A stretch of DNA of 14,134 nt from Caldifarciminota bacterium 4484_100 (GTDB lineage Bacteria; Hydrothermota; Tepidihabitantia; SM23-42). The notes beneath the pieces are model-generated. The model was not told the origin of the DNA. It saw only the letters and a list, made by a program, of their open reading frames with translations, and did not search any database. Where the stretch lies: contig MUKB01000008.1 in assembly GCA_002049785.1 (NCBI GenBank), positions 1 through 14,134 on the forward strand, in the 5' to 3' direction. Of the stretch, positions 539 to 14,134 are shown piece after piece. A program made the position numbers and the translations under genes. Position 1 is the stretch's first letter; the number at the start of each line of letters is the position of its first letter.

Positions 539-566
539 TTGACTTTTTTGGGTTATTCATTATACT
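539..566 (+). promoter_or_regulatory. comM promoter (leaderless type)
   Basis: TTGACT at 539-544 is followed by a 16-bp spacer and TATACT at 561-566. The comM ATG begins at 573, after only 6 nt, so the predicted transcription start coincides with the start codon. No purine-rich ribosome-binding site fits between them. Confidence 0.7.
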
Positions 567-572
567 CATCTT

Positions 573-2114
573 ATGCTTTCCAAGGTATATTCTTGTGCTA
601 CCTATGGTATTGATGGTTATCTGATAGATGTTGAGGTCGACCTTGCACCAGGTCTTCCTGGTTTTACCACCGTAGGGCTTCCTGACAATGCAGTAAAGGA
701 GTCAAAGGATCGGGTCTTTGCCGCGATAAAGAATGCGGGATTCAGATTTCCCACAAAGAAGATTACAGTAAATCTTGCACCAGCAGACATAAAGAAAGAG
801 GGTTCCAGTTTCGACTTACCGATCGCGGTTGGAATCTTGGGAGCAGAGGGTTCTATAAGCACAGGCCAGCTGAATCGGTATGCAATTCTGGGTGAACTTT
901 CTTTGGATGGTTCACTCCGTCCGATCAAAGGTGCAATCTCGATTGCATTGGCAGTTAAGGAGAATCGACTTGATGGTCTGATTTTGCCCCGGGTAAATGC
1001 CCGGGAGGCGGCAATTGTTGATGGGATTAAGGTATATGGGTTTGATAACATCATTGAGGTGGTTGCCTTTTTGAATGGAGAGATTGATAAGACCCCGACC
1101 CGGGTGAATCGTGATGAGATATTTGAGTCGGCATCACAATATACAGTCGATTTTTCTGAAGTGAAAGGTCAGCATCATGCAAAAAGGGCGTTGGAGATTG
1201 CTGCAGCTGGAGGCCATAATATTCTGATGATTGGACCTCCAGGAACCGGAAAGACGATGCTGGCACGAAGATTGGTTACAATTCTACCCAGAATGACCCT
1301 TGAAGAGGCCCTGGAGACGACCAAGATACATTCGGTTGCCGGGGTGCTTGGCCAGGGTGAATCCCTGCTTGCAACCCGTCCATTTCGCTCACCTCATCAT
1401 ACAATATCAGATGCAGGTATTATAGGTGGTGGTCATATCCCAAAGCCGGGCGAGGTGTCACTCGCCCATAATGGTGTATTATTTCTTGATGAGCTTCCTG
1501 AGTTTCATAAGAATGTTTTGGAAGTTCTTCGCCAACCCCTTGAGGATGGTTCGGTAACGATCGGTAGAGCAAAGATTACCCTTACATACCCGGCGAGATT
1601 CATGCTTGCGGCCGCTATGAACCCCTGCCCCTGTGGCTATTTCACTGATCCCTATCATGAATGCCGATGTACGCCCCAGGCGATACAACGGTATCATTCA
1701 AAACTTTCTGGTCCACTTCTGGACCGTATCGACATCCATATTGAGGTTCCATCCTTGCGATACGATGAACTGAAGTCGAGCCAGCCGGGTGAGTCTTCCG
1801 AGGAGATAAGAAAAAGGGTAAACCAGGCGCGGTCTCGCCAGCTTCAAAGATATAAACATCGAAGAAAGGTCTATTGCAATGCCCATCTCGGGACGCGTGA
1901 CATAAGAAAGTTCTGTGTTATCGATGAGAAGTCCCAGTCATTGCTGAAAACCGCGATTGAGCGGTTCGGTCTATCAGCCCGGGCTTATGATAAGGTGCTG
2001 AAGGTTGCCCGGACAATTGCTGATTTAGAAGGGGTTGAGGATATCAAGACCACCCATATTGCAGAGGCGATCCAGTATCGTAGTTTAGACAAAAATGTCT
2101 GGCAGAGACTTTAG
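573..2114 (+). CDS. comM: ComM/YifB-family AAA+ ATPase (magnesium-chelatase-like)
   Basis: This 513-residue protein has full family length. Residues 1-170 form the Lon-protease-like ChlI domain (opening with a [21 protein letters not shown] motif). The AAA+ core has Walker A GPPGTGKT at 221-228, Walker [11 protein letters not shown] at 302-311, and a distinctive MNPCPCG at 349-355 with a second Cys pair C364/C366, a possible metal-binding CxC...CxC set. The C-terminal helical domain is about residues 405-513. Known ComM proteins are hexameric helicases that promote branch migration during natural transformation; a cytoplasmic role of that kind is inferred here. It stands alone, with its own promoter and 58 bp before deoB. 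The ATG at 573 is chosen because the family N-terminus (M-L-S-K-V-Y-S) starts here and the promoter immediately precedes it. Confidence 0.93.
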
Positions 2115-2137
2115 CCATTGATTTATATTCGAGAGAC

Positions 2138-2165
2138 TTTACAATTTAATATTTATGAATATAAT
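2138..2165 (+). promoter_or_regulatory. deoB operon promoter (leaderless type)
   Basis: TTTACA at 2138-2143, a 16-bp spacer, and TATAAT at 2160-2165. The deoB ATG is at 2173, 7 nt after the -10 box, so the transcript is predicted to begin about 1 nt before the start codon. The intervening TTGATTA has no Shine-Dalgarno. Confidence 0.7.
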
Positions 2166-2172
2166 TTGATTA

Positions 2173-3339
2173 ATGAAGCGCGCAATCGTTCTCATTCTCG
2201 ATGGTGTTGGTATCGGTGAACTTCCAGATGCGGATCAGTATGGAGATCAGGGAAGTAATACCTTAGGAAATCTTGCACAATCTTGTGGCGGTCTGAACCT
2301 GCCATTTTTAGAAAAACTCGGTCTGGGCAATATCGCTGATATTGCGGGTGTCAAGAGGGTGGATAAACCTCTTGCCTGCTTTGGTAAGATGGCAGAGAGG
2401 TCTCCAGGCAAGGATTCTACTTCTGGACACTGGGAACTTCTTGGTGTTGTCTTAAAATCTCCATTTCCCACTTATCCTGAAGGGTTTCCCGATGAGATAA
2501 TAAAGGAACTTGAATCAAGGTTCGGCCATAAGATTCTGGGTAACAAGCCGGCATCAGGGACAGAGATTATCAAACAGTTGGGTGAGGAACATATCAGAAC
2601 AAAATCACCGATCGTTTACACCTCGGCGGACAGTGTCCTGCAGATTGCCTGTCACATCGATGTCTTCAGCCTTGAAGAGTTATATAAATTTTGTGAAATC
2701 GCAAGAGAGGTTATGCAGGGGAAGCATAATGTAGCACGGGTTATTGCCCGTCCATTTGCGGGCTCAGCACCGAATTTTTACCGCACCAAGGACCGCCGTG
2801 ATTTTTCCCTGCCTCCACCAGAGCCGACACTGCTTGACCTTGCCCAGAGAAAAGGTTATCAGGTTATCGTAATCGGCAAGGTGGATGACCTCTTCAGCCA
2901 TCGTGGTTATGACCGCTCCTATCATTCAGTCAATGACCTTGAGTGTGTCGATTATGTGCTCAAATCGATGGATGAGGTGGAGCAGGGTTTGATTGTGGCA
3001 AATTTCGTGCAGTTTGATATGGATTGGGGTCATCGTAATAATATCGAAGGATTCAAGAACGGATTGATTGAGATCGATGGCGGTTTAAAAGAGATAATCG
3101 AAAATCGAAGAAGCGAGGATCTCATTTTTATTACTGCAGACCATGGCAATGACCCAACCACCCCTTCGACCGACCACTCCCGCGAATATGTTCCGATCCT
3201 TGCCCATTCGGGAAAAGCACCCGGGGTTAATTTGGGAATCAGGAGATCGTTTTCGGACCTGGCCAAGACAATTGCCCGATATCTTGATATCGAAGGGATA
3301 CATTATGGTGAAGATTTCCTCGACAGCTGTCTCTCATAA
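2173..3339 (+). CDS. deoB: Phosphopentomutase
   Basis: DeoB interconverts ribose/deoxyribose 1-phosphate and 5-phosphate, linking nucleoside phosphorolysis to central carbon metabolism in the cytoplasm. The 388-residue length fits the family. Alkaline-phosphatase-superfamily residues are all in place: D10 in LILDGVGIGELPDA, the phosphorylated Thr T83 in KDSTSGHWE, D153 in SADS, D282 and H287 in FDMDWGHRN, D323/H324 in TADHGND, and H335 in TDHSREYVP. These match the di-manganese site and phospho-threonine known for Bacillus DeoB with a small constant offset. It opens a four-gene operon and overlaps cdd by 35 nt. The ATG lies just after a -10 box with no Shine-Dalgarno, so it is probably translated from a leaderless mRNA. 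Confidence 0.97.
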   Translation: MKRAIVLILDGVGIGELPDADQYGDQGSNTLGNLAQSCGGLNLPFLEKLGLGNIADIAGVKRVDKPLACFGKMAERSPGKDSTSGHWELLGVVLKSPFPTYPEGFPDEIIKELESRFGHKILGNKPASGTEIIKQLGEEHIRTKSPIVYTSADSVLQIACHIDVFSLEELYKFCEIAREVMQGKHNVARVIARPFAGSAPNFYRTKDRRDFSLPPPEPTLLDLAQRKGYQVIVIGKVDDLFSHRGYDRSYHSVNDLECVDYVLKSMDEVEQGLIVANFVQFDMDWGHRNNIEGFKNGLIEIDGGLKEIIENRRSEDLIFITADHGNDPTTPSTDHSREYVPILAHSGKAPGVNLGIRRSFSDLAKTIARYLDIEGIHYGEDFLDSCLS

Positions 3340-3721
3340 GCGACTTGCAAGAGAGATGATAAAACTTGTAAAGAAAGGGATTACCAATGCCTATGCGCCT
3401 TATTCCTCAATTCCGGTGAGTGCCGGGCTCTATTGCAAGGATGGCGAAATATTTACCGGGGTCAATATTGAAAATAGTTCTTATTCTTTGAGTATGTGTG
3501 CGGAAAGGGTCGCGCTGTTTAAGGCTGTTGCTTCAGGCCAAAGGAATTTTTTATTATTACTTTTATATTCACCAAAGATAGATTTCATTCTTCCCTGTGG
3601 CGCCTGTCTCCAGACCCTCTGTGAATTTTCTCCAGAACTTGTGATTGCAACAATGAATACGAATGAAGAATTTAAATTTTATCCATTAAAGACACTTATC
3701 AAAAGGCCATTCAGATTATGA
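3305..3721 (+). CDS. cdd: Cytidine deaminase
   Basis: This 138-residue protein would deaminate cytidine/deoxycytidine to uridine/deoxyuridine in pyrimidine salvage. Catalytic zinc-site motifs are clear: C65-A-E67 (MCAERVALFKAV), and P97-C98-G-A-C101. The three Cys ligands and catalytic Glu correspond to the short tetrameric CDA class; NIENSSYS and AYAPYS are further family signatures. The start at 3305 is preceded by GAAGGGA about 6 nt upstream and overlaps deoB by 35 nt. A downstream ATG at 3356 is possible but would trim the first helix. An in-frame ATG at 3143 lies deep inside deoB and adds non-family sequence. Overlap with deoB supports one nucleoside-salvage unit. The gene ends in an ATGA overlap with the next gene. 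Confidence 0.93.
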   Translation: MVKISSTAVSHKRLAREMIKLVKKGITNAYAPYSSIPVSAGLYCKDGEIFTGVNIENSSYSLSMCAERVALFKAVASGQRNFLLLLLYSPKIDFILPCGACLQTLCEFSPELVIATMNTNEEFKFYPLKTLIKRPFRL

Positions 3722-5502
3722 ACTATTTTTTCAGTATCTTTCTGAGAGATTTAAATAGAGAGAAGTTTTATGAAATAATTGAAACCTTGGAGCAATTCTC
3801 CGGAAGTATCGTTGAGGTTGAGAAGAGTCTGATCCTCGGTCAATCTGATACCGTTGAGATTGTCGCCTCACTTTTGAAGATGCGTGAATTCTACCCGGAG
3901 ATGAGGTTCGGTTTTTCCCAGTATCCAGGTCTTGCCAAGGGCCTTTCCCGTATTGCGAAGTTCGGCGAGGTCCTGATATCTGAAGAGGTTGAGCAGAAAC
4001 TCCTCGACGACTTTGAAATCACCTCGCTGGGTATGCTCACGATTGAAGGGATGTCGAGCCAGATACTCGTCTGCAGGATTGACCAGCCCCGGGGAGATTT
4101 GAAATTTCCCAAGCAGATAAGAAAAGAAAATAGAATCTCCCGGGCGGGTCAGATTGATGCCATGGAGAATCTTTTGAGTGTTTCTAATGCGGTTTTGATT
4201 GTTGGACCTACCGGAATCGGAAAGACGGTCTTCATTGACCAGCTGGTAGAGAGATGGCAGGAACAAAAAGAAGTCCTGCGCACGGTCTGTCCACCCATTA
4301 TTCGGCGTCTCAGTCTGGAACCGATTATGGAACTTGTTGAGCAGTTGTTGGAGATTGAGGATGTCGAATCGATTGGAGAAAAACAGCAGGCTATTGAAAG
4401 GCGTCTCAAGGAACTGGGTATTGCCGATATCGGCACGACCTATCTTGCAGTGCTCGATTTTTTGGGTCTGAGCGAGGAGGAGACGATTTTAGAGAAGATG
4501 GACCTGAAGGTCAGGGTTGACCTTGTTACTACCAACATTGCTGAAATTATTAAAAGAATGTCCTGGAATCGACCTCTTGTTATTATCGTCGAGGATGTTG
4601 AGAATATGGATCCGTCTTCGGTCAATTTTATGCAGAACCTTATACTTAAATTGGCCGATGAAAATGTATATTTTATTTTCTCCTCAGCCCTCTCCCAGGT
4701 GAACATTTCAGGAATCAAGGAATTTGAATTGCGCGAGATCGAGAGGGAGGATTTGATAAACCTGGTCAAGAACGAAATTAATGAAGAAATTAAATTCGCT
4801 GCTGCCACCCCACTCCATATTGCACAGTTTTTACGACTTTATAGGGAGGAGAGGCTCGACTATTTTTATAAACAGTACCAGGGTGAAGCTGCAATCGGAG
4901 GCTTTAACCTCCCATTCCATGACTTTAAGACAGTGGTCAAACGCCGGGTCGAACTACTGGAAGAGAAGAAGGATTTTATTTATAATCTTGCTATCGCCGG
5001 GATTAAGATTATCCCCGATGAGTTTCCTGTGGACAAAGATAATCTTGGACTCTTTGAATATTTTGTAAAAAGGGGCTTCCTGCGTCGATTTTTAAACTAT
5101 TACATATTTATAAATCCGTTACTCCATAATGAAATCTATGACCTCATCCCGGATAAGAAGAGACGACATCAACATCTGGCAGATTATTACAGTAGGCTTG
5201 AAGGATATGAAGAGCTTGCTGCCTACCATCTTCAGCAGGCGGAGAGTTACAACAAGGCGATTGAGTATCTGATAAAATCTGCTCAGTTAGTAGTTGGAAA
5301 AGGGGCGTATGATTCAGGCATCAATTACTACAAGAAGGCCCTCGAGTTATGTCAGCAGCATCGGGAGCTTGCCAATCTGGAGATTCTGGTGGCTATAAAT
5401 GAGGGTCTGGCCGATATCTATCGTGCCCTGGATGATGAGGAGACTGCATTAAAATATTATAAGGTTGTTCTGGATAGTTATAAAGAAATTCTTAAGGAAT
5501 GA
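3718..5502 (+). CDS. STAND-type ATPase with degenerate nucleotidyl-cyclase-like N-terminus and TPR tail
   Basis: A 594-residue cytoplasmic protein. Residues 1-122 resemble the end of a class III adenylate/guanylate cyclase homology domain (GLSRIAKFGEVLISEEVEQK, then a SLGMLTIEGMSSQILVCRI-like strand). The early metal-binding Asp motif (FxDIxGFT) is not present, so catalysis is unlikely. An AAA/NACHT-like domain follows, with Walker A GPTGIGKT at 163-170 and Walker B LVIIVED at 287-293. Residues about 500-594 are TPR-like helices (YNKAIEYLIKSA, YDSGINYYKKALEL, EETALKYYKVVLD). The order cyclase-ATPase-TPR is that of known cyclase-coupled STAND regulators, but this copy is short at both ends. 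It overlaps cdd and lptD by 4 nt each (ATGA), implying translational coupling. Its ligand or target is unknown; a scaffold or signalling role is inference. Confidence 0.72.
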   Translation: MNYFFSIFLRDLNREKFYEIIETLEQFSGSIVEVEKSLILGQSDTVEIVASLLKMREFYPEMRFGFSQYPGLAKGLSRIAKFGEVLISEEVEQKLLDDFEITSLGMLTIEGMSSQILVCRIDQPRGDLKFPKQIRKENRISRAGQIDAMENLLSVSNAVLIVGPTGIGKTVFIDQLVERWQEQKEVLRTVCPPIIRRLSLEPIMELVEQLLEIEDVESIGEKQQAIERRLKELGIADIGTTYLAVLDFLGLSEEETILEKMDLKVRVDLVTTNIAEIIKRMSWNRPLVIIVEDVENMDPSSVNFMQNLILKLADENVYFIFSSALSQVNISGIKEFELREIEREDLINLVKNEINEEIKFAAATPLHIAQFLRLYREERLDYFYKQYQGEAAIGGFNLPFHDFKTVVKRRVELLEEKKDFIYNLAIAGIKIIPDEFPVDKDNLGLFEYFVKRGFLRRFLNYYIFINPLLHNEIYDLIPDKKRRHQHLADYYSRLEGYEELAAYHLQQAESYNKAIEYLIKSAQLVVGKGAYDSGINYYKKALELCQQHRELANLEILVAINEGLADIYRALDDEETALKYYKVVLDSYKEILKE

Positions 5503-7511
5503 TAATCATCTTATACCTGGGGATGGCCGTAGATACAGCTCCGGGTGATACGGTCGATATAATCCATTATCAGGCAAAAGAGATTGTATACGATTTAGAA
5601 AAATCGTTGATAACCCTTTCTGACTCTTCGATAATTACATACCGAGATATCAAATTGACATCAGATAGTGCATATTATCACATTGATGAAAATGTTCTTG
5701 AGGCCTTCGGAAATTGCGACCTCAGGCAGATGGGTGATTCGATCAAGGGCGATTATCTTAAGTATAATATTGAAAATAGAAAGGCATTGATGACCAACGC
5801 ACGAACCCAGATCGGTAAGGGATTTCTTGAAGGAAAGAAGGTTATTTGGGTGAGTAAGGATGTTATAAATGCCTACGACGGCGTGTATACCACCTGTAGT
5901 AATACACCTCCCCATTACTATTTCTACTCCCCGAAAATGAAGATATATCTTGGAGATATGGTTATTGCCCGACCGATCTTTCTCTATATCCAGGGTGTTC
6001 CAGTTGTGGCCGCGCCGTTCTGGTTTGTTCCCATATCGAAGAAACGCAAGTCCGGACTTTTGCCATTTCGGGCCGGAAATTCCCGCGATTTTGGAAAATT
6101 TATTCGCGGTTTTGCCTATTATTTCGTCATCTCAGATTATGCAGACCTCACCCTCCAGGTTGATGCTATGGAGAAGAAGGGGATAATGCCACACTTAGAG
6201 GCTATCTGGGATTATAACCCATTCACCAAAGGAACGATCCACAGCTCTTATATAAAAGAAACAGATACCAGGCGGAAACGGTATAGTATCGAGGCGAGAA
6301 ACAGTTCTCCATATTTTCTTCTGGGTTCGAGTTTCAATTGCGACATTCACTATATCAGCGATAATCAATATCAGCAGGATTTTACAGATACTACAGTATT
6401 ATGGTTGAAGAAAGAGATTTCATCACAGGCAACCATCACCGGGGAGTTCAATAGTATAAAGAATACCCTTTTTTTCGAACGGATGGAAAACATAGCTGAC
6501 AGCACGATAATTGAAAAACTCCCCGGCTATTCGTTCTCTACACCCTCACGCCTTCTCTTTTCAACGATAAATTATTCGGTCGCTGGACATTTTACCCGTG
6601 AACAATACCAATCATCTGTTGATACAACCCGGGTTGTGGGCGCGGATATCAGTACCGCCCCTTCATTTAAGCAGAATATACTGGGTCTATTTACAATTTC
6701 ACCTCGAGTCAATTTCGATCTTGCGGGATTTGATCAGGATACTGCAGGAAATAGGTTGCGGATGCGTGCTGCATATTCATTTACGACCAGTGCAACGACG
6801 ATCTTCTACCGGATCTTTGGACTGGAACTTCTGGGCTTCCATGGTATCCTGCATAAGGTGATTCCACAGATTTCATATTCTTATACCCCTGATTTTCATT
6901 CGGAGCGGTTTCCTGTGGTCTCCGGAATTCCCAGGTTCACTCCCTGCAATCAGATCGCCTTTGGGATCGGTCAGGAGTTTGAAGCGAAGTTTGGTGAAGA
7001 GTTGAAGAAGATTCATGTCCTCAAGATGAACTGGAATGGTGCGTATAATCTTCTCACCGATTCTTTGACGCCATTTAAATTTTTTGGGGAATTGCCGGCG
7101 AACCTTTTTCCTGGACCGATCAGCAGTTTTAATTTAAACATAAGAGGTGAATGGAATCCATATAATTATGACTACACCTATACCATAACAAATTCAATCT
7201 CTTTTGTACTGAGTTTCTTTTCAATAAATCTGAATCAGAGTTATACAAAAGCGGGGACATATCAGATTTGGTTCAATGGGAAGTTGAAACCGACACGCAA
7301 CTGGCTTGTTTCATATTCGGCGCGTTATGATTGGGAGACAAAGCGTCTGGTCAATTATAGTTTCAATCTCCAGCGTGACCTCCATTGCTGGCAGGCAAAT
7401 TTCAGTTTCAATCAACTCGGAGATGTGTGGCGCTATGACTTCAAGGTTCAGATTAAAGAGATTCCCGAGGTGCAGATTGGAAAGGGGCTCCTCGGTTATA
7501 TCTTTGAATAG
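5499..7511 (+). CDS. lptD: LPS-assembly protein LptD (OstA-like outer-membrane protein)
   Basis: LptD inserts lipopolysaccharide into the outer leaflet of the outer membrane. Residues about 20-115 resemble the periplasmic LptA/OstA-like jellyroll (repeated short beta strands, YDLEKSLITL...AYYHIDENVLEAFG). From about 128 the family signature appears: VYTTC...PHYYFYSPKMKIY, IARPIFLYIQGVPV, PFWFVP...KRKSGLLPF. The rest is a beta-strand-rich barrel with alternating aromatic residues. At 670 aa it is in the size range of compact LptDs. The N-terminus (MIIILYLGMAVDTA) is a very short hydrophobic stretch with no basic n-region, so the export signal looks abbreviated; an in-frame stop at 5493 prevents extension upstream. 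It is the last gene of the deoB operon, overlapping the STAND gene by 4 nt, and its stop lies 5 bp from the convergent gene. Confidence 0.85.
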   Translation: MIIILYLGMAVDTAPGDTVDIIHYQAKEIVYDLEKSLITLSDSSIITYRDIKLTSDSAYYHIDENVLEAFGNCDLRQMGDSIKGDYLKYNIENRKALMTNARTQIGKGFLEGKKVIWVSKDVINAYDGVYTTCSNTPPHYYFYSPKMKIYLGDMVIARPIFLYIQGVPVVAAPFWFVPISKKRKSGLLPFRAGNSRDFGKFIRGFAYYFVISDYADLTLQVDAMEKKGIMPHLEAIWDYNPFTKGTIHSSYIKETDTRRKRYSIEARNSSPYFLLGSSFNCDIHYISDNQYQQDFTDTTVLWLKKEISSQATITGEFNSIKNTLFFERMENIADSTIIEKLPGYSFSTPSRLLFSTINYSVAGHFTREQYQSSVDTTRVVGADISTAPSFKQNILGLFTISPRVNFDLAGFDQDTAGNRLRMRAAYSFTTSATTIFYRIFGLELLGFHGILHKVIPQISYSYTPDFHSERFPVVSGIPRFTPCNQIAFGIGQEFEAKFGEELKKIHVLKMNWNGAYNLLTDSLTPFKFFGELPANLFPGPISSFNLNIRGEWNPYNYDYTYTITNSISFVLSFFSINLNQSYTKAGTYQIWFNGKLKPTRNWLVSYSARYDWETKRLVNYSFNLQRDLHCWQANFSFNQLGDVWRYDFKVQIKEIPEVQIGKGLLGYIFE

Positions 7512-7516
7512 AAGAG

Positions 7517-9223
7517 CTACTGGAGGAAGAAGTCATCGCGATTGTCTTCGATCTCCTCCGGAGTGAAGAGTTCCTGGGTAATGAGGTTGAGACGTTCCTG
7601 CCTTTTGTACTGAAGTAGCCGCACCATATTCGAATCGACAGGGGTTATAATCTTACGGTCACAGCGGATGATATATCCTGCCCAATCGGTAACCAGTGGG
7701 GGTGAGATTTCATTTTCATTCAGCGAGGCGACCACACCGGCAAATTCCTCGCCGTAGGCGGTGGCAATCTGAACCAGGGTCTGGTCCTTTATCCCGGACT
7801 GGTATGAAATCAGGGTATCGGTCTTGCTCAATTCAGCCATTGTCTTACCTGTATTCAACTGGTCATAGAGTTCTGCCATATATTGTTTCAGGTTGTCTTT
7901 CAGAACCTTATTCTCCAGTCGCGCCTTGATCCTTGGCCTGGCATCCTCTAATGTCAATTCTTTTGCAGGAATTATTGAGTCGAGTGCAAACAGGTAATAA
8001 CCGCCGATACTGCTAAAGGGTCCACCGATATCCTTTGGTCCGGCATGGAAGGTGAAATCTTTCAGTTTCTTTTTATTATTTACTGGAAAATCCACGCCAT
8101 CCGCGGTGAAGGGGATGGTCTGGCGTACCGGTATCTCAAAGTCTATTGCGGTAGAATCAAAACCTATCTCCTTGGCAGATTCCTTGAATGCATTGATGCG
8201 GTCGTAGATATCATCAACCGTGGTTGCAGAGACTTCAATATTTGCCTTGACCCGATAGAATAGTCCTTTGTGCACACGTTTGATTACCTCAAAACCGTGC
8301 GCACCCTTGAATATCCCTGAGACCTCTCCATCTTTCAGGCTCTTGTATACCTTTAAGAGATATGGTTTGACCAGCGATTCTTTTTCAAAGCGGTATTCAA
8401 CAAGGGTATCATCAGAGACATCCTTTGCCAGTTTCAGAAAATCTTCGCCCAGTTTTAACTCGGCAAGAAAGTCCTCAAGCCGTTCCCGGGCCTCGGTTGT
8501 ATCTGCGGATGAAGGCCGGCGTGGGAAATAGACATACTTCAATATCCTTTTCTCGGGAATGACGAATTCCTTTTTATGCTTTTTATAGTAATTTTCAATT
8601 TTGGTATCATCTATATTCACCCTTGAGTGCATTTTGTAAAGTGCAATATTGATAAAAGAGAAGTCATATTTCGTATTCTGCCAGAGAAGGAGAATACTAT
8701 CCTCAAATGGTGAAACCCAGCCGAGGGTGGTCAGTATGGTGCGGGCCTTTTCCTTGGGAAGTTCACTCCGTAGTTGTTGTTCATATTGATATAACCACTG
8801 GATGCTCTGGGGTGCCTTCAGGAGCTGGTAATACTTGTTCCAGTCGAATTTCCCATTCTCATCTTTCATATATTCGGAATTGTAGATCTCAGGCGGGGGA
8901 TTATTTTTGATAATCGCCCAGATCTCTTCGTCGGTTACTGAAATTCGTTCTTTCTGGAGTAAGCGTGACCACATAATATCATCGATGAGCATAGACCAGA
9001 TCTCATCCCTGGTTATGCCCTTCTGGCTGTTTTCTTTGTTACGGACATAATTTATGTAGTCCTGATATGAGATAGTGATTCCGTCAATTTTGGCAATATT
9101 CTTTGACCTCATGCCGCGACGTCCGGTTACATTCAACCCCCAGTTGAAAAATATTAAGAGGGCGAAGCCTGCCAGAGCAATAAAGAGGATCAATCTTGTC
9201 TTTTTCCTTAACTGTTGCATCAT
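7517..9223 (-). CDS. Membrane-anchored SurA/PpiD-like peptidyl-prolyl isomerase/chaperone
   Basis: This 568-residue protein has a basic start (QQLRKKTR), one hydrophobic anchor at about 11-28, then a large extracytoplasmic part. Residues 40-190 resemble the SurA N-terminal chaperone domain (IAKIDGITISYQDYINYV...ISVTDEEIWAII). Residues about 226-318 look like a parvulin domain (LGEDFLKLAKDVSDD, LKDGEVSGIFKGAHGFEVIKRVHK), though the usual SHIL opening reads KYVYF, so isomerase activity is doubtful. A second, weaker parvulin-like segment follows (KDIGGPFSSIGGYYLFALD). This is PpiD-style architecture: a periplasmic holdase aiding envelope proteins. It starts 2 nt after larA; AGGAGG (9234-9229) sits 5 nt before the first ATG and 8 nt before the second of a tandem ATGATG, so either codon may be used. 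Confidence 0.8.
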   Translation of the reverse strand: MMQQLRKKTRLILFIALAGFALLIFFNWGLNVTGRRGMRSKNIAKIDGITISYQDYINYVRNKENSQKGITRDEIWSMLIDDIMWSRLLQKERISVTDEEIWAIIKNNPPPEIYNSEYMKDENGKFDWNKYYQLLKAPQSIQWLYQYEQQLRSELPKEKARTILTTLGWVSPFEDSILLLWQNTKYDFSFINIALYKMHSRVNIDDTKIENYYKKHKKEFVIPEKRILKYVYFPRRPSSADTTEARERLEDFLAELKLGEDFLKLAKDVSDDTLVEYRFEKESLVKPYLLKVYKSLKDGEVSGIFKGAHGFEVIKRVHKGLFYRVKANIEVSATTVDDIYDRINAFKESAKEIGFDSTAIDFEIPVRQTIPFTADGVDFPVNNKKKLKDFTFHAGPKDIGGPFSSIGGYYLFALDSIIPAKELTLEDARPRIKARLENKVLKDNLKQYMAELYDQLNTGKTMAELSKTDTLISYQSGIKDQTLVQIATAYGEEFAGVVASLNENEISPPLVTDWAGYIIRCDRKIITPVDSNMVRLLQYKRQERLNLITQELFTPEEIEDNRDDFFLQ

Positions 9224-9225
9224 AA

Positions 9226-10479
9226 TTACCTCCTTTGGTTAAGAACAGGCAAGACCACCTTCCCATTGGGGATGATAAATAGTTTGTAATCATTCCCGTG
9301 CTCACCTTTTATCTTTTCAATGGCATCGTTCAATTCGGTTATCGGTTTGAACCCGAGTGATTTCACAGTTTCAGGCTCCAGGTCTGAGAGCACATAGACC
9401 TTGTGTTCTTTTAAAATTCGGGCGGTAACAAATGCCCGATGACCTCCGATTTCAATCTTATCTTCAGGATAGCCGAGAAGCCGGTCAATACTGTTTTCCT
9501 GCATAAGTTTTAAAAATTTCATGTTGCCGAACCCCTCCTGACATCGAGCAATGAGAATAATACTGCCTTTCGGTTTGAGTGCACGCATCGCCAGATTCAA
9601 GGACTTATGGCTGTTATAGAAATCTTTATCGTATGGATAACCTCCGGCACTGACAATCACCGCATCGGCTGGTTGTGTAATGGTCTGTTTCCTCTGCGTG
9701 CAGAAGTATTCTACGGCCTGTTCAAAAGCAAATATCGGGTTACCAAAAAAGACCCGTGATGTTTTTCGGGTCGGGGTCTCCACAACATTCACCAGGTAAT
9801 CCGGTTTGAAGAGTTCGGCTGCCTCGGCCATCTCCTGGGCGATGATATTATTTTTCAGTTCAGCAATGGCAACTCCGGGTCGGCGCAGTTTTGAATGATT
9901 CGCCCTTGTGGTATTATATGAAGATATTCCAGGCAAGATCGATTTCCTTCCTCCGGAGAACCCTGCAAGATAGTGGAAGTCAACCCGACCGGTCAGAATC
10001 ACGAATTCAGCTTCCCTTGCCCGTCGGTTCACCTCCACCACCAGATTTGTGCTCGTCTTACCGATACGGACGAGTTCATTGCGGCAGTTATGGAAGGTGA
10101 ATTCGAATTCATCAAGAAGCCTGCCGTAGAGTCTTCTGTTCTCTTCCGGGGTGTGGAGGCGGTGGGTGCCGATTGCAATGATGAAATGGATATTCTTTTC
10201 ATCTACCCCGGCATCAACAATTTCGCCAATTAAGAATCTCAAGATTTCCTGATAATTGGCGATTGAACGGGTTATATCCGAAACAAGGATCACCAGATCC
10301 CTGGGCCGGTTTCGGCGCAGAAGTTTGACCAATCTCGGGGCACCAATCGGTGCTGTTACACCACTTTTCAACAGTTCTTCAATTCTTAGAGGCTCATCAG
10401 GTTTTGGTTCCAATACCGCCAGTAAATTTCTCTCAGGTACATTACAGGTAATGGTGCTGGTGCCGTATTTCAATTCCAT
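9226..10479 (-). CDS. larA: LarA-family nickel-pincer racemase/epimerase-like protein
   Basis: LarA uses a covalently bound nickel-pincer cofactor to racemize lactate by hydride transfer; relatives act on malate, phenyllactate or sugar acids. The 417 residues match family length. Expected residues are visible: D68-x-T-R71 (SDITRS), GTH at 104-106, H169 in VDFHYLAGF, the pincer-bearing lysine K179 in SGGRKSILPG, H195 in ANHSKL, and a later YNSHKSLNLA at 288-297. These correspond to H108, H174, K184 and H200 of the Lactobacillus enzyme. The substrate cannot be read from sequence, so lactate racemase is only the best-known member. The cofactor-making larB, larC and larE are not in this window. 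It leads a two-gene minus-strand operon from a leaderless-type promoter, and its final Arg-Arg-stop codons form the next gene's ribosome-binding site. Confidence 0.87.
   Translation of the reverse strand: MELKYGTSTITCNVPERNLLAVLEPKPDEPLRIEELLKSGVTAPIGAPRLVKLLRRNRPRDLVILVSDITRSIANYQEILRFLIGEIVDAGVDEKNIHFIIAIGTHRLHTPEENRRLYGRLLDEFEFTFHNCRNELVRIGKTSTNLVVEVNRRAREAEFVILTGRVDFHYLAGFSGGRKSILPGISSYNTTRANHSKLRRPGVAIAELKNNIIAQEMAEAAELFKPDYLVNVVETPTRKTSRVFFGNPIFAFEQAVEYFCTQRKQTITQPADAVIVSAGGYPYDKDFYNSHKSLNLAMRALKPKGSIILIARCQEGFGNMKFLKLMQENSIDRLLGYPEDKIEIGGHRAFVTARILKEHKVYVLSDLEPETVKSLGFKPITELNDAIEKIKGEHGNDYKLFIIPNGKVVLPVLNQRR
9229..9234 (-). promoter_or_regulatory. Shine-Dalgarno AGGAGG embedded in larA end
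   Basis: On the minus strand AGGAGGTAA encodes the last Arg-Arg-stop of larA and is also a near-perfect ribosome-binding site for the downstream ppiD-like gene. The spacing is 5 nt to the first ATG and 8 nt to the second. This shows that anti-SD-dependent initiation operates in this organism. Confidence 0.85.
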
Positions 10480-10484
10480 AGCCT

Positions 10485-10512
10485 ATTTTACCTAAATAGT
10501 GGGTTATGTCAA
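10485..10512 (-). promoter_or_regulatory. larA operon promoter (leaderless type)
   Basis: On the minus strand: TTGACA (10512-10507), a 16-bp spacer, and TAAAAT (10490-10485). The larA ATG starts at 10479, 5 nt after the -10 box, so the transcript is expected to start at the ATG itself. There is no Shine-Dalgarno. Confidence 0.7.
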
Positions 10513-10523
10513 CGACCAAGGGT

Positions 10524-10540
10524 TCCACGAAAATTGTGGA
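10524..10540. promoter_or_regulatory. 17-bp dyad upstream of larA promoter
   Basis: TCCAC at 10524-10528 and GTGGA at 10536-10540 flank a near-symmetric centre GAAAATT, giving an operator-like dyad about 12 bp upstream of the larA -35 box. An activator or repressor site is possible; no regulator gene lies in the window to test it against. Weak by itself. Confidence 0.3.
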
Positions 10541-10645
10541 TTGGGTCATTTAATAAAATTTGGCATCTATACTGAACTGGATAATGCGGAAGGGATATCA
10601 GCAATAATTCTTTGAAATTTAATGTCTTTGCGATGCAGATAGTTG

Positions 10646-10673
10646 TTGACAGGGGTTAGATTTTAGATATAAT
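10646..10673 (+). promoter_or_regulatory. Promoter of secreted kelch gene
   Basis: Consensus TTGACA at 10646-10651, a 16-bp spacer, and consensus TATAAT at 10668-10673; a second TATAAT follows at 10673-10678. It is the best match to sigma-70 consensus in the window, suggesting strong expression. The predicted start near 10680 gives a leader of about 118 nt. The dyad TTGAAA-TCG-TTTCAA (10680-10694) sits on the start point and could be an operator or a 5' hairpin. Confidence 0.8.
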
Positions 10674-10679
10674 ATAATG

Positions 10680-10797
10680 TTGAAATCGTTTCAAACTCTT
10701 GAAAGGGGGTGATAGGAGCAAAAAGTCCGGGTTTAAGGGATAGCCTGAAATGAGAAGAAAAATTATCCCAAATAAATAATAAACGAAAGGAGCAGTA
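10680..10797 (+). promoter_or_regulatory. Long 5' leader of kelch gene, possible structured RNA
   Basis: The strand TTTCA (10689-10693) can pair with TGAAA at 10681-10685, with TTGAAA at 10699-10704, or with TGAAA at 10746-10750, so alternative folds are possible. ACTCTT-GAAA-GGGGGT (10695-10710) can form a 6-bp, GU-rich stem capped by GAAA. Then come GGAGCAAAAAGTC, CGGGTTTAAGG and GATAGCC. The order AAAC / GAAA-capped stem / GCAAA / CGGG-TAAG / ATAGCC with an outer TTTCA-TGAAA helix recalls the c-di-GMP-I (GEMM) riboswitch consensus, but the second arm is too short. Two overlapping mini-ORFs also lie here: GTG 10709-10753 and ATG 10750-10779 (MRRKIIPNK), overlapping as ATGA. No terminator is seen before the gene. 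AAAGGAG at 10786-10792, 5 nt from the ATG, is the ribosome-binding site. Confidence 0.35.
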
Positions 10798-13230
10798 ATG
10801 AAGAAGTTTATTATTCTGGCGTTATCGCTTTGCTTAATGCCAATCTTTTTGCAGGCAACATCAGAGGATGTTGCAGCAACACCGGCACATGTGTTTAAGG
10901 TGCCGAACCCACAACCGTCCCATTATGACGGGCCGCGGTCTACGCCGACTCTGGTTGATACAATCGATTTGAGTCCGATAAATCCAACTGGTTATTGCTG
11001 GGGTATTACATATGACTGGGACCGTGATGTTCTCTGGATAACCCAGTGGAACTCTGCCTATCCCACGGTCTATGCAATTCAGAAGACATCGCCCTGCACT
11101 AAGGTCGATTCCTTCACCTTAGGCAGTGGCGCCCCTTCATATCACCTTGGTATCGGCTATGCGGGCAATGATATTATGTATATGGCAGGTTTTGACGCCA
11201 ATGTCTATCAGATTGATATGATAACCGGGAATGGAACGGTCTATCGGTCAATGCCCTGGTCCAGTGCTGAAGGTCTGGGATTTAATGCGGTTGATGATGC
11301 AATCTATCCGAGCGACTGGTCGGCTGATCAGTGTGCCTGGGCAATACCATCTCAGTCTGGTTCCTGGAATACCTGGAGTGTTGCATCAGCTCCCTGTGGA
11401 ATGTCCGGTGCCTGGAGCGCATCTACACCTCCGGATATGATTTTCCAGGCTGAGGAAGCGAACCCGGCTCACTTTTATCAGTATAGCGTGAGCGGTGGTG
11501 TGCCCAATACCACTCCAGATTCGGTCTGGGATTGTGACCCTGGACAGACCCAGGGATATGAGGCAGACTGCACATTTGACGGCCGGTATGTCTATATCCT
11601 TGACCAGTCCGGTCCGGACAAGGTCTGGGTATATGATGTTGGTATTGCAGGGACCAACCACGATGTGGGTACCCAGGCGATTCTTGCACCTGGGGCAACG
11701 ATTCTGCCCAATACCACGATTAATCCCAGTGCCCGATATCGGAATTATGGTGGATATACCGAGACATTTGATGTCTATTTCCTAATCGATTCAGCCGGAG
11801 TTAATATCTATAGCCAGAGCGCAAATATTACTTTGAATTCTGGAACCGATACCACAATCACCTGGCCCAGCTGGACCTCCTGTGGGACAAGCGGTATTAC
11901 ATATGACATCACCGCCTACACAGTCCTTTCTGGTGACGAGAATCCGGCAAATGACACCCTGACCAGCCAGACCATTGTTACCACTGTTTACTGGGAGATA
12001 CTCTCTGCCCAATTCCCATCGCCAAGTTCAGGACACGAGATGGCGACCATACACGATGGTAAATATATGGTCTTTGGCATTAGAACTACCGGTGGTTATT
12101 TGAGCCAGACTCAGATTTACGACATTGCTGCAGGTTCCTGGAGTGCGGGTCCGGATAATCCATACGGTTGCGGTGCTTATGGTTCTGCCCAGGGTGTGAA
12201 TGGCAAATACTACAGAATTGGTGGAACTGATAGCTGGCCAACAGCACTCACAAGGGTTGATATATATGACCCATCTACTAGCCAGTGGTCAAGCGGTGCG
12301 GCCTCACCAAGGGCATGGATTGACCATGCGACTGGGGTGTATAATGATTCTCTCATCTTCTGTCTTGGTGGTGGTAACTGGGGAACTGGTAATACACCAC
12401 ATACTGATGTATACTTCTATGATACCTATCTGGATTCCTGGACCCAGGCAACATCAATGCCCGGTGTTGGCAGAGGTTGTCTTGCTGGTGGTGTGATTGA
12501 TACATTTGCGATTGTAGCCTGTGGTTATGATGGCACAAGTACCTATCGCAATGACTATATTGTGGGCATCATTGACCAAAGCGATGCCTCCCAGATTGCC
12601 TGGGGTTCGCCAACAAACATTCCAGGAATGGCTGGCCGTTATCGTGTGCCCAGTGGTGTTGACCACGTTAACAAAGAACTCTGGGTAGTGTGTGGACAGA
12701 TCTCAGGTGGAGCAAGTGATGAAACCTGGTCATATAACCCATATACCGATACCTGGACCAACTGGAATAAGCCTAAACCACATCCAATGGGTAATGTCTC
12801 ACCAGTTGTAGTCACCACGACCGCTGCGGGTGATTTTGGTGTTTTTGTTGCGAGTGGATATTTTAATGGTTCATACATTACTGACCACGAGGTCTTCCAT
12901 ACCGGTATGACCGGAATCGAAGAGAAGCCGGGTGAATTCACCCAGCCGACCGCGTTCGGCTTTGCTCCGGATATGCCGAATCCGGTTAAGGGTTATGCAC
13001 CGATTACCTATACGACCACAAAACCTGGTCCGGTAACACTTAAGGTGTTCGATATCTCTGGTCGACTGGTGAAGACACTGGTCAATCGTGTGGTTGAGCC
13101 ACAGGGAACAAAGACTGTATACTGGACCCTGAAGGATGATTCTCATCGTCCGGTTGCCAATGGTGTCTACTTCTTGAGACTTGAGGTTGGTTCTGAGGTT
13201 GCTACGCACAAGCTTACGGTTGTGAAGTAA
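10798..13230 (+). CDS. Secreted kelch/beta-propeller protein with FlgD-like C-terminal sorting-type domain
   Basis: An 810-residue exported protein of unknown specific role. Residues 1-20 are a classic signal peptide (MKKF, hydrophobic core, cleavage likely after LQA). Residues about 64-282 look like a beta-propeller-type segment (GITYDWDRDVLWITQW, LGIGYAGNDIMYMAGF). About 288-397 resembles a CARDB-like beta-sandwich (ATILPNTTINPSARYRNYG...ENPANDTLTSQT). About 408-702 carries some five or six kelch-like blades (GHEMATIHDGKYMVFG, YYRIGG, DIYDPSTSQW, YNPYTDTW). After a GIEEKPGE linker, residues 716-810 form a FlgD-Ig/type A sorting-like domain (DMPNPV...VTLKVFDISGRLVKTL...ANGVYFLRLEVG, final HKLTVVK). 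Such tails direct surface export or anchoring in Bacteroidota; whether type IX secretion exists here is unknown. It is a single-gene unit with its own strong promoter, a Shine-Dalgarno and a terminator. Confidence 0.85.
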   Translation: MKKFIILALSLCLMPIFLQATSEDVAATPAHVFKVPNPQPSHYDGPRSTPTLVDTIDLSPINPTGYCWGITYDWDRDVLWITQWNSAYPTVYAIQKTSPCTKVDSFTLGSGAPSYHLGIGYAGNDIMYMAGFDANVYQIDMITGNGTVYRSMPWSSAEGLGFNAVDDAIYPSDWSADQCAWAIPSQSGSWNTWSVASAPCGMSGAWSASTPPDMIFQAEEANPAHFYQYSVSGGVPNTTPDSVWDCDPGQTQGYEADCTFDGRYVYILDQSGPDKVWVYDVGIAGTNHDVGTQAILAPGATILPNTTINPSARYRNYGGYTETFDVYFLIDSAGVNIYSQSANITLNSGTDTTITWPSWTSCGTSGITYDITAYTVLSGDENPANDTLTSQTIVTTVYWEILSAQFPSPSSGHEMATIHDGKYMVFGIRTTGGYLSQTQIYDIAAGSWSAGPDNPYGCGAYGSAQGVNGKYYRIGGTDSWPTALTRVDIYDPSTSQWSSGAASPRAWIDHATGVYNDSLIFCLGGGNWGTGNTPHTDVYFYDTYLDSWTQATSMPGVGRGCLAGGVIDTFAIVACGYDGTSTYRNDYIVGIIDQSDASQIAWGSPTNIPGMAGRYRVPSGVDHVNKELWVVCGQISGGASDETWSYNPYTDTWTNWNKPKPHPMGNVSPVVVTTTAAGDFGVFVASGYFNGSYITDHEVFHTGMTGIEEKPGEFTQPTAFGFAPDMPNPVKGYAPITYTTTKPGPVTLKVFDISGRLVKTLVNRVVEPQGTKTVYWTLKDDSHRPVANGVYFLRLEVGSEVATHKLTVVK

Positions 13231-13246
13231 TTATACAGTTTAAGAT

Positions 13247-13280
13247 AAAGCCCCCGCACAAAAAGTGCGGGGGCTTTTTT
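13247..13280 (+). terminator. Intrinsic terminator after kelch gene
   Basis: A perfect 13-bp stem, AAAGCCCCCGCAC (13247-13259) with GTGCGGGGGCTTT (13265-13277), loop AAAAA, followed by T residues to 13280. It lies 16 bp after the stop codon. The A-tract on the left arm means it could also work in reverse. It is the only convincing intrinsic terminator in the window. Confidence 0.95.
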
Positions 13281-13282
13281 AT

Positions 13283-13322
13283 ACCGATTTTTTATTTTCA
13301 GAGAAAATGGGCGATAAATCGG
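13283..13322. other. AT-rich nested inverted repeat
   Basis: ACCGATTT (13283-13290) and AAATCGGT (13315-13322) are complementary and enclose a smaller ATTTTC-AGA-GAAAAT hairpin (13293-13307). TTTTA follows. It could be a weak back-up terminator or a chance structure between the kelch gene and serS. Confidence 0.3.
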
Positions 13323-13365
13323 TTTTATAGTAGTTTCTGCAGTTGGGAAAAATTAGTTTATATCA

Positions 13366-13393
13366 TTGACTTGAATTGAAAAAATGGTATAAT
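13366..13393 (+). promoter_or_regulatory. serS promoter (leaderless type)
   Basis: TTGACT at 13366-13371, a 16-bp spacer, and TATAAT at 13388-13393. The serS ATG begins at 13401, 7 nt after the -10 box, leaving room for about one untranslated nucleotide. The interval AGTCATA has no Shine-Dalgarno, and no T-box-like leader is present. Confidence 0.75.
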
Positions 13394-13400
13394 AGTCATA

Positions 13401-14134
13401 ATGATCGACATAAAAATTTTAAGGGAAGAACCCGAACTTATACGAAAGGCAATTAGGGATCGGGGAGAGGATATCTCCCTGGATGAGATTCTTGAACTCG
13501 ATAAAAAGAGGCGTGCCCTGATAACCGAGTTGCAAAGGTTGAGGCAGAAAAGGAATGAACTTTCAGAAAAGGTTGGCCAGTTGAAACGGGAAGGTAAAGA
13601 TACGAGCGATTTGATGGACCGGGCGCGGGAAATAGGTGCACAGATTAAAGAAAAGGAGAAATTATCTAAAAAGGTCGATGAGCAGTTCAGGAGAAAGATG
13701 CAATGGCTTCCCAATATTCCGCATAAATCGGTTCCTGTAGGTCCTGATTCGAGTGCCAACAGATATGTGCGGGGATTAAAAGAGCCTCCCAGATTCGATT
13801 TTAATGTTCTACCCCACTGGGATATCTGCACTGCCCTGGATATTCTGGATCAGAAGCGGGCTTCAAAGATTGCGGGCTCGCGATTCATCCTTTATAAGGG
13901 TGCTGGTGCCAAACTGGAAAGGGCACTGATAAATTTCTTTCTGGATATCCACACGCAGAGACATAGTTATCTTGAGGTTTTCCCACCGGTCCTGAACCCT
14001 CCACAATGCCTTTTCGGCACCGGTCAGCTTCCCAAACTTGCGCGGGAGATGTATTATTGCCAGGATGACAACCTTTATCTTGCCCCAACCGCTGAAGTCC
14101 CTTTGACAAATATCCATACCGGAGAGATAATTCC
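13401..14134 (+). CDS. serS: Seryl-tRNA synthetase, N-terminal 244 codons (runs off the window)
   Basis: SerRS charges tRNA-Ser with serine in the cytoplasm. The frame starts MIDIKILREEPELIRKA, typical of bacterial SerRS, and has no stop before the window ends, so about 57% of the usual 420-430 residues is seen. Residues about 30-105 are the charged, heptad-rich coiled-coil arm that grips the tRNA long arm (ELQRLRQKRNELSEKVGQLK, KEKEKLSKKVDEQ). Class II catalytic-domain features follow: the SKIAGSRFILYKGAGAKLERAL-type motif 1 region, YLEVFPPVL, GTGQLPKL, and the serine-recognition TAEVPLTN near the edge. Motifs 2 and 3 lie outside. The ATG directly follows a -10 box without a ribosome-binding site, and nothing in frame upstream suits the family N-terminus. 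Confidence 0.95.
   Translation, partial: MIDIKILREEPELIRKAIRDRGEDISLDEILELDKKRRALITELQRLRQKRNELSEKVGQLKREGKDTSDLMDRAREIGAQIKEKEKLSKKVDEQFRRKMQWLPNIPHKSVPVGPDSSANRYVRGLKEPPRFDFNVLPHWDICTALDILDQKRASKIAGSRFILYKGAGAKLERALINFFLDIHTQRHSYLEVFPPVLNPPQCLFGTGQLPKLAREMYYCQDDNLYLAPTAEVPLTNIHTGEII

Follow-up and report, generated by a model that had tools for sequence, protein, structure and literature searches.

Promoters abutting the start codon point to leaderless genes in a relative of candidate division WOR-3 bacteria

In bacteria, leaderless genes have been associated chiefly with Actinobacteria and Deinococcus-Thermus. The subject of the present analysis is a stretch of 14,134 nucleotides (nt) from Caldifarciminota bacterium 4484_100 (contig MUKB01000008.1 of assembly GCA_002049785.1), which at its full length is referred to here as the window, and in which the genes comM, deoB, larA and serS each have a promoter standing directly against the ATG. 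A survey of 953 bacterial genomes detected leaderless genes in 207 of them, and the groups it lists, one of which is “unclassified”, do not name this phylum (PMC3160421), while a later survey, as cited in PMC9581028, predicted 21.6% of bacterial species to use them. Our search, mainly of the open literature, found no paper on both WOR-3 or Stahlbacteria and leaderless genes, and none of the titles listed in a wider search was evidently on this lineage.

Among the described systems, Deinococcus-Thermus is reported to have genes led by a -10 box 6–7 nt before the open reading frame (ORF), which account for nearly one third of the genes of D. radiodurans (PMC3160421, PMC12340547). As in that group, promoter-abutting genes and genes with a Shine-Dalgarno (SD) site are mixed here in one genome, and the Thermus plasmid pTT27 behaves alike in our analysis; unlike that group, the window belongs to an uncultured member of a different phylum, with a strong TTGACA -35 box at a 16 base pair (bp) spacer and a commonest gap of 5 nt. 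In mycobacteria, about a quarter of the genes are described as leaderless, mixed with SD-led genes (PMC3898074, PMC4633059), and translation of leaderless messages is said to start at a 5' ATG or GTG, not TTG (PMC4633059). TTG is likewise rare among the promoter-led genes found here, although the mycobacterial case is reported as proven by transcription start mapping and ribosome profiling, whereas ours is known from DNA alone. The genomes predicted to be leaderless in the later survey, which used GeneMarkS-2, also combine leaderless and leadered genes, the former making up at most 40% of transcripts (cited in PMC9581028), as here. Leaderless genes are, then, of a known kind, and in WOR-3 bacteria they look common and conserved. 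A further phylum at similar levels would offer an independent case for asking why this mode is kept and which features of the ribosome allow it; it would also mean that gene callers that look for SD sites may set starts wrongly in these metagenome-assembled genomes (MAGs), and that the promoters of many genes could be read straight from the sequence.

The window is contig C49 of the genome labelled G000 (1.33 Mb in 136 contigs, 53% complete), which was compared above all with a genus mate, G071, and with a member of family f23, G043. The closest ComM proteins among named genomes are those of a candidate division WOR-3 MAG and a KSB1 MAG, each at 65% identity, and the other best matches belong to the window's own genus and family; judged from such protein matches, G000 is close to the candidate division WOR-3 MAGs.

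In all four genes, the -35 and -10 boxes are separated by 16 bp, and the ATG follows the -10 box after 6, 7, 5 and 7 nt in comM, deoB, larA and serS, exactly as the first-pass annotation of this DNA had described (Table 1). Each of these promoters is the top -35/-10 pair within the 110 nt upstream of its gene, scored with boxes learned from G000, and the best pairs of 100 Markov shuffles equalled or beat it 0, 1, 1 and 0 times, respectively. The lack of an SD site, also claimed at that stage, was borne out by inspection of the 5–7 nt between the -10 box and the ATG, where none of the four genes has one. As deoB lies 58 nt downstream of comM on the same strand, its status as a first gene depends entirely on the conserved promoter in front of it, while a terminator-like hairpin with a T run ahead of serS supports the position of that gene at the head of its unit. 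The four genes are very probably transcribed from primary-sigma promoters which start at or near the ATG, giving leaderless mRNAs with an SD-free start. Under this mechanism, ordinary primary-sigma promoters would be placed so that transcription begins at, or about 2 nt from, the A of the ATG, and the ribosome would recognise the 5'-terminal AUG or GUG of the resulting leaderless mRNA without SD contact, presumably through direct binding of the message to the 70S ribosome, a route described in other prokaryotes (PMC5397173).

Table 1. Positions of promoters, genes and other signals in the window
Feature	Position	Strand	Evidence or remark
comM -35 TTGACT	539..544	+	sequence, promoter scoring
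comM -10 TATACT, 6 nt before ATG	561..566	+	sequence, promoter scoring
comM (YifB family ATPase), ATG 573	573..2114	+	TIGR00368, 684 bits
deoB -35 TTTACA	2138..2143	+	same in 21/21 copies examined
deoB -10 TATAAT, 7 nt before ATG	2160..2165	+	sequence, promoter scoring
deoB (phosphopentomutase), ATG 2173	2173..3339	+	NF003766, TIGR01696
larA -35 TTGACA	10507..10512	-	sequence, promoter scoring
larA -10 TAAAAT, 5 nt before ATG	10485..10490	-	sequence, promoter scoring
larA-like nickel-dependent racemase, ATG at 10479	9226..10479	-	best NF052593, 374 bits, below cut-off 500
serS -35 TTGACT	13366..13371	+	sequence, promoter scoring
serS -10 TATAAT, 7 nt before ATG	13388..13393	+	sequence, promoter scoring
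serS (putative), 5' part, running off window end	13401..14134	+	name from first-pass annotation
ppiD Shine-Dalgarno GGAGG	9229..9233	-	sequence (aaaGGAGGtaattATG)
kelch promoter TTGACA-16-TATAAT	10646..10673	+	sequence
kelch Shine-Dalgarno AGGAG	10788..10792	+	sequence (AGGAGcagtaATG)
Terminator-like hairpin + T run between kelch and serS	13250..13281	+	by eye

The same arrangement recurs throughout the genome. A direct pattern search of G000 for TTGAC-N{17,18}-TAnnnT-N{5,7}-ATG gave 141 matches, versus 4 for the reversed pattern and 25 with the ATG placed 20 nt further on. For a gene-by-gene account, a sample of G000 chosen blind to the pattern was used (every contig whose number is a multiple of three, 45 in all, each cut to its first 20 kb where longer; 424 kb), together with samples of G071 (302 kb) and G043 (111 kb) and controls of 150 kb each from E. 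coli K-12 and Thermus pTT27. A mixture model that sorted genes as promoter-led, SD-led or neither picked the starts jointly with their upstream signals, blind to the position of the gene in its transcription unit and with a penalty on genes running more than 30 nt into the one before. This model was adopted because the calling of starts by hexamer score alone, which was dropped, often misplaced them (for example, that of the kelch gene in the window) and weakened the -10 peak: TAnnnT then stood at gaps of 5, 6 and 7 nt in 19, 13 and 7 of the 145 first genes, with a background of about 5 at each other position.

In the G000 sample, the model learned TATAAT and TTGACA, with 93% of its weight on a spacer of 16 and 89% on gaps of 5–8 nt. 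It called 51 of 140 first genes (36%) promoter-led, versus 9 of 176 internal genes (Fisher p=7e-13), with 6/26 intermediate and 8/31 contig-edge genes, and 18/700 when the upstream sequences were shuffled. A further 52 first genes (37%) were SD-led and 37 (26%) were neither, while SD sites led 114 of the 176 internal genes. The genus mate gave similar values, 43/98 first genes (44%) against 7/129 internal ones (p=2e-12; shuffles 13/490), and a count anchored on the promoters themselves found an ORF start 5–8 nt downstream in 44 of 110 TTGAC promoters, with 1/24 in the reversed control. Several of the remaining TTGAC promoters precede an SD site within some 15–30 nt, judged by eye from a listing of 60 of 101 rows. 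In E. coli K-12, on the other hand, no clear -10 box was learned, and first and internal genes showed no such contrast (28/76 versus 12/46, p=0.15; shuffles 107/380). Starting the model from reversed motifs was rejected as a clean negative control, given that it drifted to true or shifted motifs: in G071 it returned to the true -10 box with a -35 box displaced by a single position (promoter-led in 50/97 first and 24/129 internal genes), and in the G000 sample it ended at a shifted motif of lower quality (58/140 first and 29/176 internal genes). For this reason, the analysis relies on the shuffles, on E. coli and on the contrast between first and internal genes.

The pattern is beyond chance, and the genome-wide check proposed in the first-pass annotation came out as predicted, with a -10 peak 5–8 nt before the starts of first genes, hardly any at internal genes, and SD sites prevailing internally. 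Its broader suggestion of leaderless initiation as the default for first genes, with SD initiation for some internal or special genes, is too strong, since the leaderless type is about as common as the SD type among first genes. A leaderless reading of the genome is nonetheless very likely, with this mode serving perhaps 36–44% of first genes, other first genes having SD sites and internal genes mostly relying on them.

One other reading of the same signal is that the AT-rich hexamer is a translational element, such as an S1-type or other non-SD ribosome site comparable to those of Bacteroidetes, and that the true promoter lies further upstream. AT-rich upstream signals could be S1 sites in some phyla, and AT-rich non-canonical sites are described for the FCB (Fibrobacteres-Chlorobi-Bacteroidetes) group (PMC5397173, PMC9581028), but here the hexamer is tied to a -35 box at a fixed distance, the spacer being 16 in 91 of 110 TTGAC promoters as well as in nearly all of the model weight, and it is rare at internal genes, though these need ribosome sites too. 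Moreover, SD sites are widely used in the genome (196/373 genes of the sample) and the anti-SD is intact in G071, where it was identified from the 3' end of the 16S rRNA, recognised by eye at locus L157 as GGATCACCTCCTTT; the low SD use of the Bacteroidetes type is thus not what is seen, and this reading is highly unlikely.

The conservation of the four promoters bears on a second possibility, namely that the promoters are real and the true start codons lie further downstream, leaving short leaders. The counts given here include the window, and the copies are related rather than independent. The best promoter stands at a gap of 5–6 nt in 18/18 copies of larA (17 of 26 relatives examined, distant matches of at most 34% identity being left out), at 5–7 nt in 17/17 copies of serS (16 of 29 relatives examined, all of the window's own family), and at 6–8 nt in 19/21 copies of deoB (20 of 25 matching relatives examined), the other two having it at 10 nt. 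For comM, after loci L232, L235, L238, L245 and L246 were dropped as not located and L224 was recognised as a repeat of the window, which changed the count from 13/19 to 12/18 distinct located copies, the gap is 5–7 nt in 12, and in 12/13 within the family and order. As starts are called computationally, and calling them without upstream signals performs poorly, a displaced start might be suspected; in most relatives, however, the ortholog matches of ComM, DeoB, LarA and SerS start from residue 1 or 2, and this, with a gap of 5–8 nt preserved in 65 of 67 larA, serS, deoB and order-level comM copies once the two 10-nt deoB cases and one comM failure are set apart, makes starts further downstream very improbable. 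Chance or base composition can be set aside almost entirely, for although the bare TAnAAT-N6-ATG has a sizeable background in G000 (119 versus 41 reversed), this reading is contradicted by the full pattern (141 against 4 reversed and 25 shifted), by the shuffles (18/700 versus 51/140) and by the ortholog conservation.

The divergent larA and serS genes occur on one stretch in 13 genomes, where they are direct neighbours (in the window, the kelch gene sits between them), with start codons 77–106 bp apart in 8 of the 13 and 142–391 bp apart in the other five; the shorter of these intervals, each with two promoters, illustrate how compact a control region without leaders may be. The -35 box of deoB is an invariant TTTACA in the window and in its relatives (L254–L273), as opposed to the usual TTGACA, and perhaps doubles as a regulator site. 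In two comM copies, L231 (G076) and L245 (G110), there is a single in-frame stop, TGA and TAA respectively, which may be an assembly error or mark a pseudogene.

In E. coli, transcription starts about 6–7 nt past the -10 box. The boxes here are of the primary-sigma type, TTGACA and TATAAT, though at 16 bp rather than 17, and the RpoD of G071 retains Q437, T440, R584, E585, R588 and Q589 of E. coli, which we take to be the -10 and -35 contacts of that sigma factor; this lends support to applying the start distance of E. coli here. The contact residues are conserved in 5/5 genomes examined. The start codons themselves are consistent with leaderless initiation in two tests devised post hoc: TTG is depleted among promoter-led relative to SD-led genes (1/74 versus 19/196 in G000, 1/54 versus 9/119 in G071; pooled, 2/128 versus 28/315, p=0.003), and in the G000 sample a T stands at -1 in 49/74 promoter-led versus 77/196 SD-led genes (p=1e-4).

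Besides the late design of those tests, several points weigh against the leaderless interpretation. It is drawn from DNA, and the predicted start distance is borrowed from E. coli; gaps of 7–8 nt, and the purines at -1 found in most serS copies, would allow leaders of 1–2 nt. The depletion of TTG is unclear in G043 (5/57 versus 5/33) and G102 (4/26 versus 2/44). The abutting comM promoter is lost in 5/5 located copies of families f3 and f7, whose best promoter is 18–47 nt away, one f3 copy (L240) having AGGAGG upstream. Finally, the Thermus pTT27 positive control separated first from internal genes clearly (38/71 versus 8/69, p=8e-8), but as its shuffles were called in 99/355 cases (28%), only this contrast counts there.

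How far the pattern extends in the lineage, a question raised at the outset, was approached in a phylum set of 147 genomes, 65 of which, including the window's own, form its class (families f1–f10). Abutting matches outnumber shifted ones in 65/65 genomes of the class (11028 versus 2706, with 379 reversed), the shifted count being a harsh control, given that it includes real SD-led promoters. The extension holds less well in the other 82 genomes (3604 abutting versus 1761 shifted, 523 reversed), where signals are weaker or the box is different: the ratio of abutting to shifted matches is at least 3 in f15 and f28–f33, and at most 1.2, without excess in some families, in f13, f17, f20, f22, f23, f25 and f35. 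Among 28 genomes reached through named loci, two WOR-3 MAGs had 86 matches versus 7 reversed (1.4 Mb) and 23 versus 7 (2.4 Mb), and in the other 26 the density did not exceed about 12 matches per Mb, compared with 106 in G000.

Small family samples gave, for first versus internal genes, 14/55 versus 2/43 in f3 (shuffle rate 7.6%), 14/43 versus 1/24 in f10 (11%) and 11/34 versus 6/50 in f9 (14%). The values for f22 (32/57 versus 9/32, 22%) and f26 (21/45 versus 3/45, 18%) are suggestive, and those for f17 (9/26 versus 2/32, 31%), f11 (18/44 versus 9/68, 49%) and f30 (13/32 versus 4/29, 35%) support no claim. The simpler TANAAT-N6-ATG has too high a background for most families of the phylum; in f22 it gave 152 versus 14 reversed (G034) and 165 versus 13 (G035).

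Family f23 has a different promoter box, and this is a more novel lead than the leaderless genes themselves. In G043, 38/50 first genes are promoter-led, versus 8/38 internal ones (shuffles 24/250), with no clear -35 box. Counting the last base of its TAnAAT as -1, 92% of these 38 genes have a C at -12 and 74% have one at -9; the box lacks a TTGAC -35, stands mostly 6–9 nt ahead of the start and leads about three quarters of first genes (loci L185–L191, G043). The motif C..C..TA.AAT occurs 46 times in the G043 sample, versus 13 reversed, with an ORF start 5–10 nt on in 32 cases, and C..C..TAnAAT-N7-ATG gave 645 versus 37 reversed matches across 8/8 f23 genomes, including the one from which the motif was derived. 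Outside f23, it reaches at most 20 per genome (G034 20 versus 3, G035 19 versus 1, G128 16 versus 7, G071 14 versus 4). G043 and G038 show no change at the RpoD residues checked, so that the RpoD comparison offers no explanation of the box. Family f23 looks more leaderless than the window's lineage, and the chances are evenly balanced that the WOR-3 phylum has kept leaderless initiation from early on, through changes in the promoter code, with TTGACA-16-TATAAT now used in the window's class and C..C..TAnAAT in f23.

The two SD sites reported in the first-pass annotation, those of ppiD and kelch, are indeed present. The ppiD gene starts 2 nt past the end of larA and is thus internal, while kelch, a first gene, has a promoter of its own, an SD site and a predicted leader of about 118 nt (10680–10797), which makes it an exception to the proposed leaderless rule; a scan of the window against Rfam at gathering thresholds gave no match, so that at this stringency the leader belongs to no described RNA family. 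The kelch-like secreted protein gene, which lies in the interval 10480–13400 between larA and serS, carries a sorting tail of the type IX secretion system type (TIGR04183). Elsewhere in the window, a partial AAA-type regulator-like protein (3718–5502), matching TIGR03903 over residues 69–355, is followed by an LptD-like outer-membrane protein (5499–7511), and the intergenic DNA at positions 120–370 holds low-complexity runs made up of gtcattaagtcattgag and acaaaccag, similar repeats of TGACTCAATGACTTA being found also on contigs C5 and C98 of G000.

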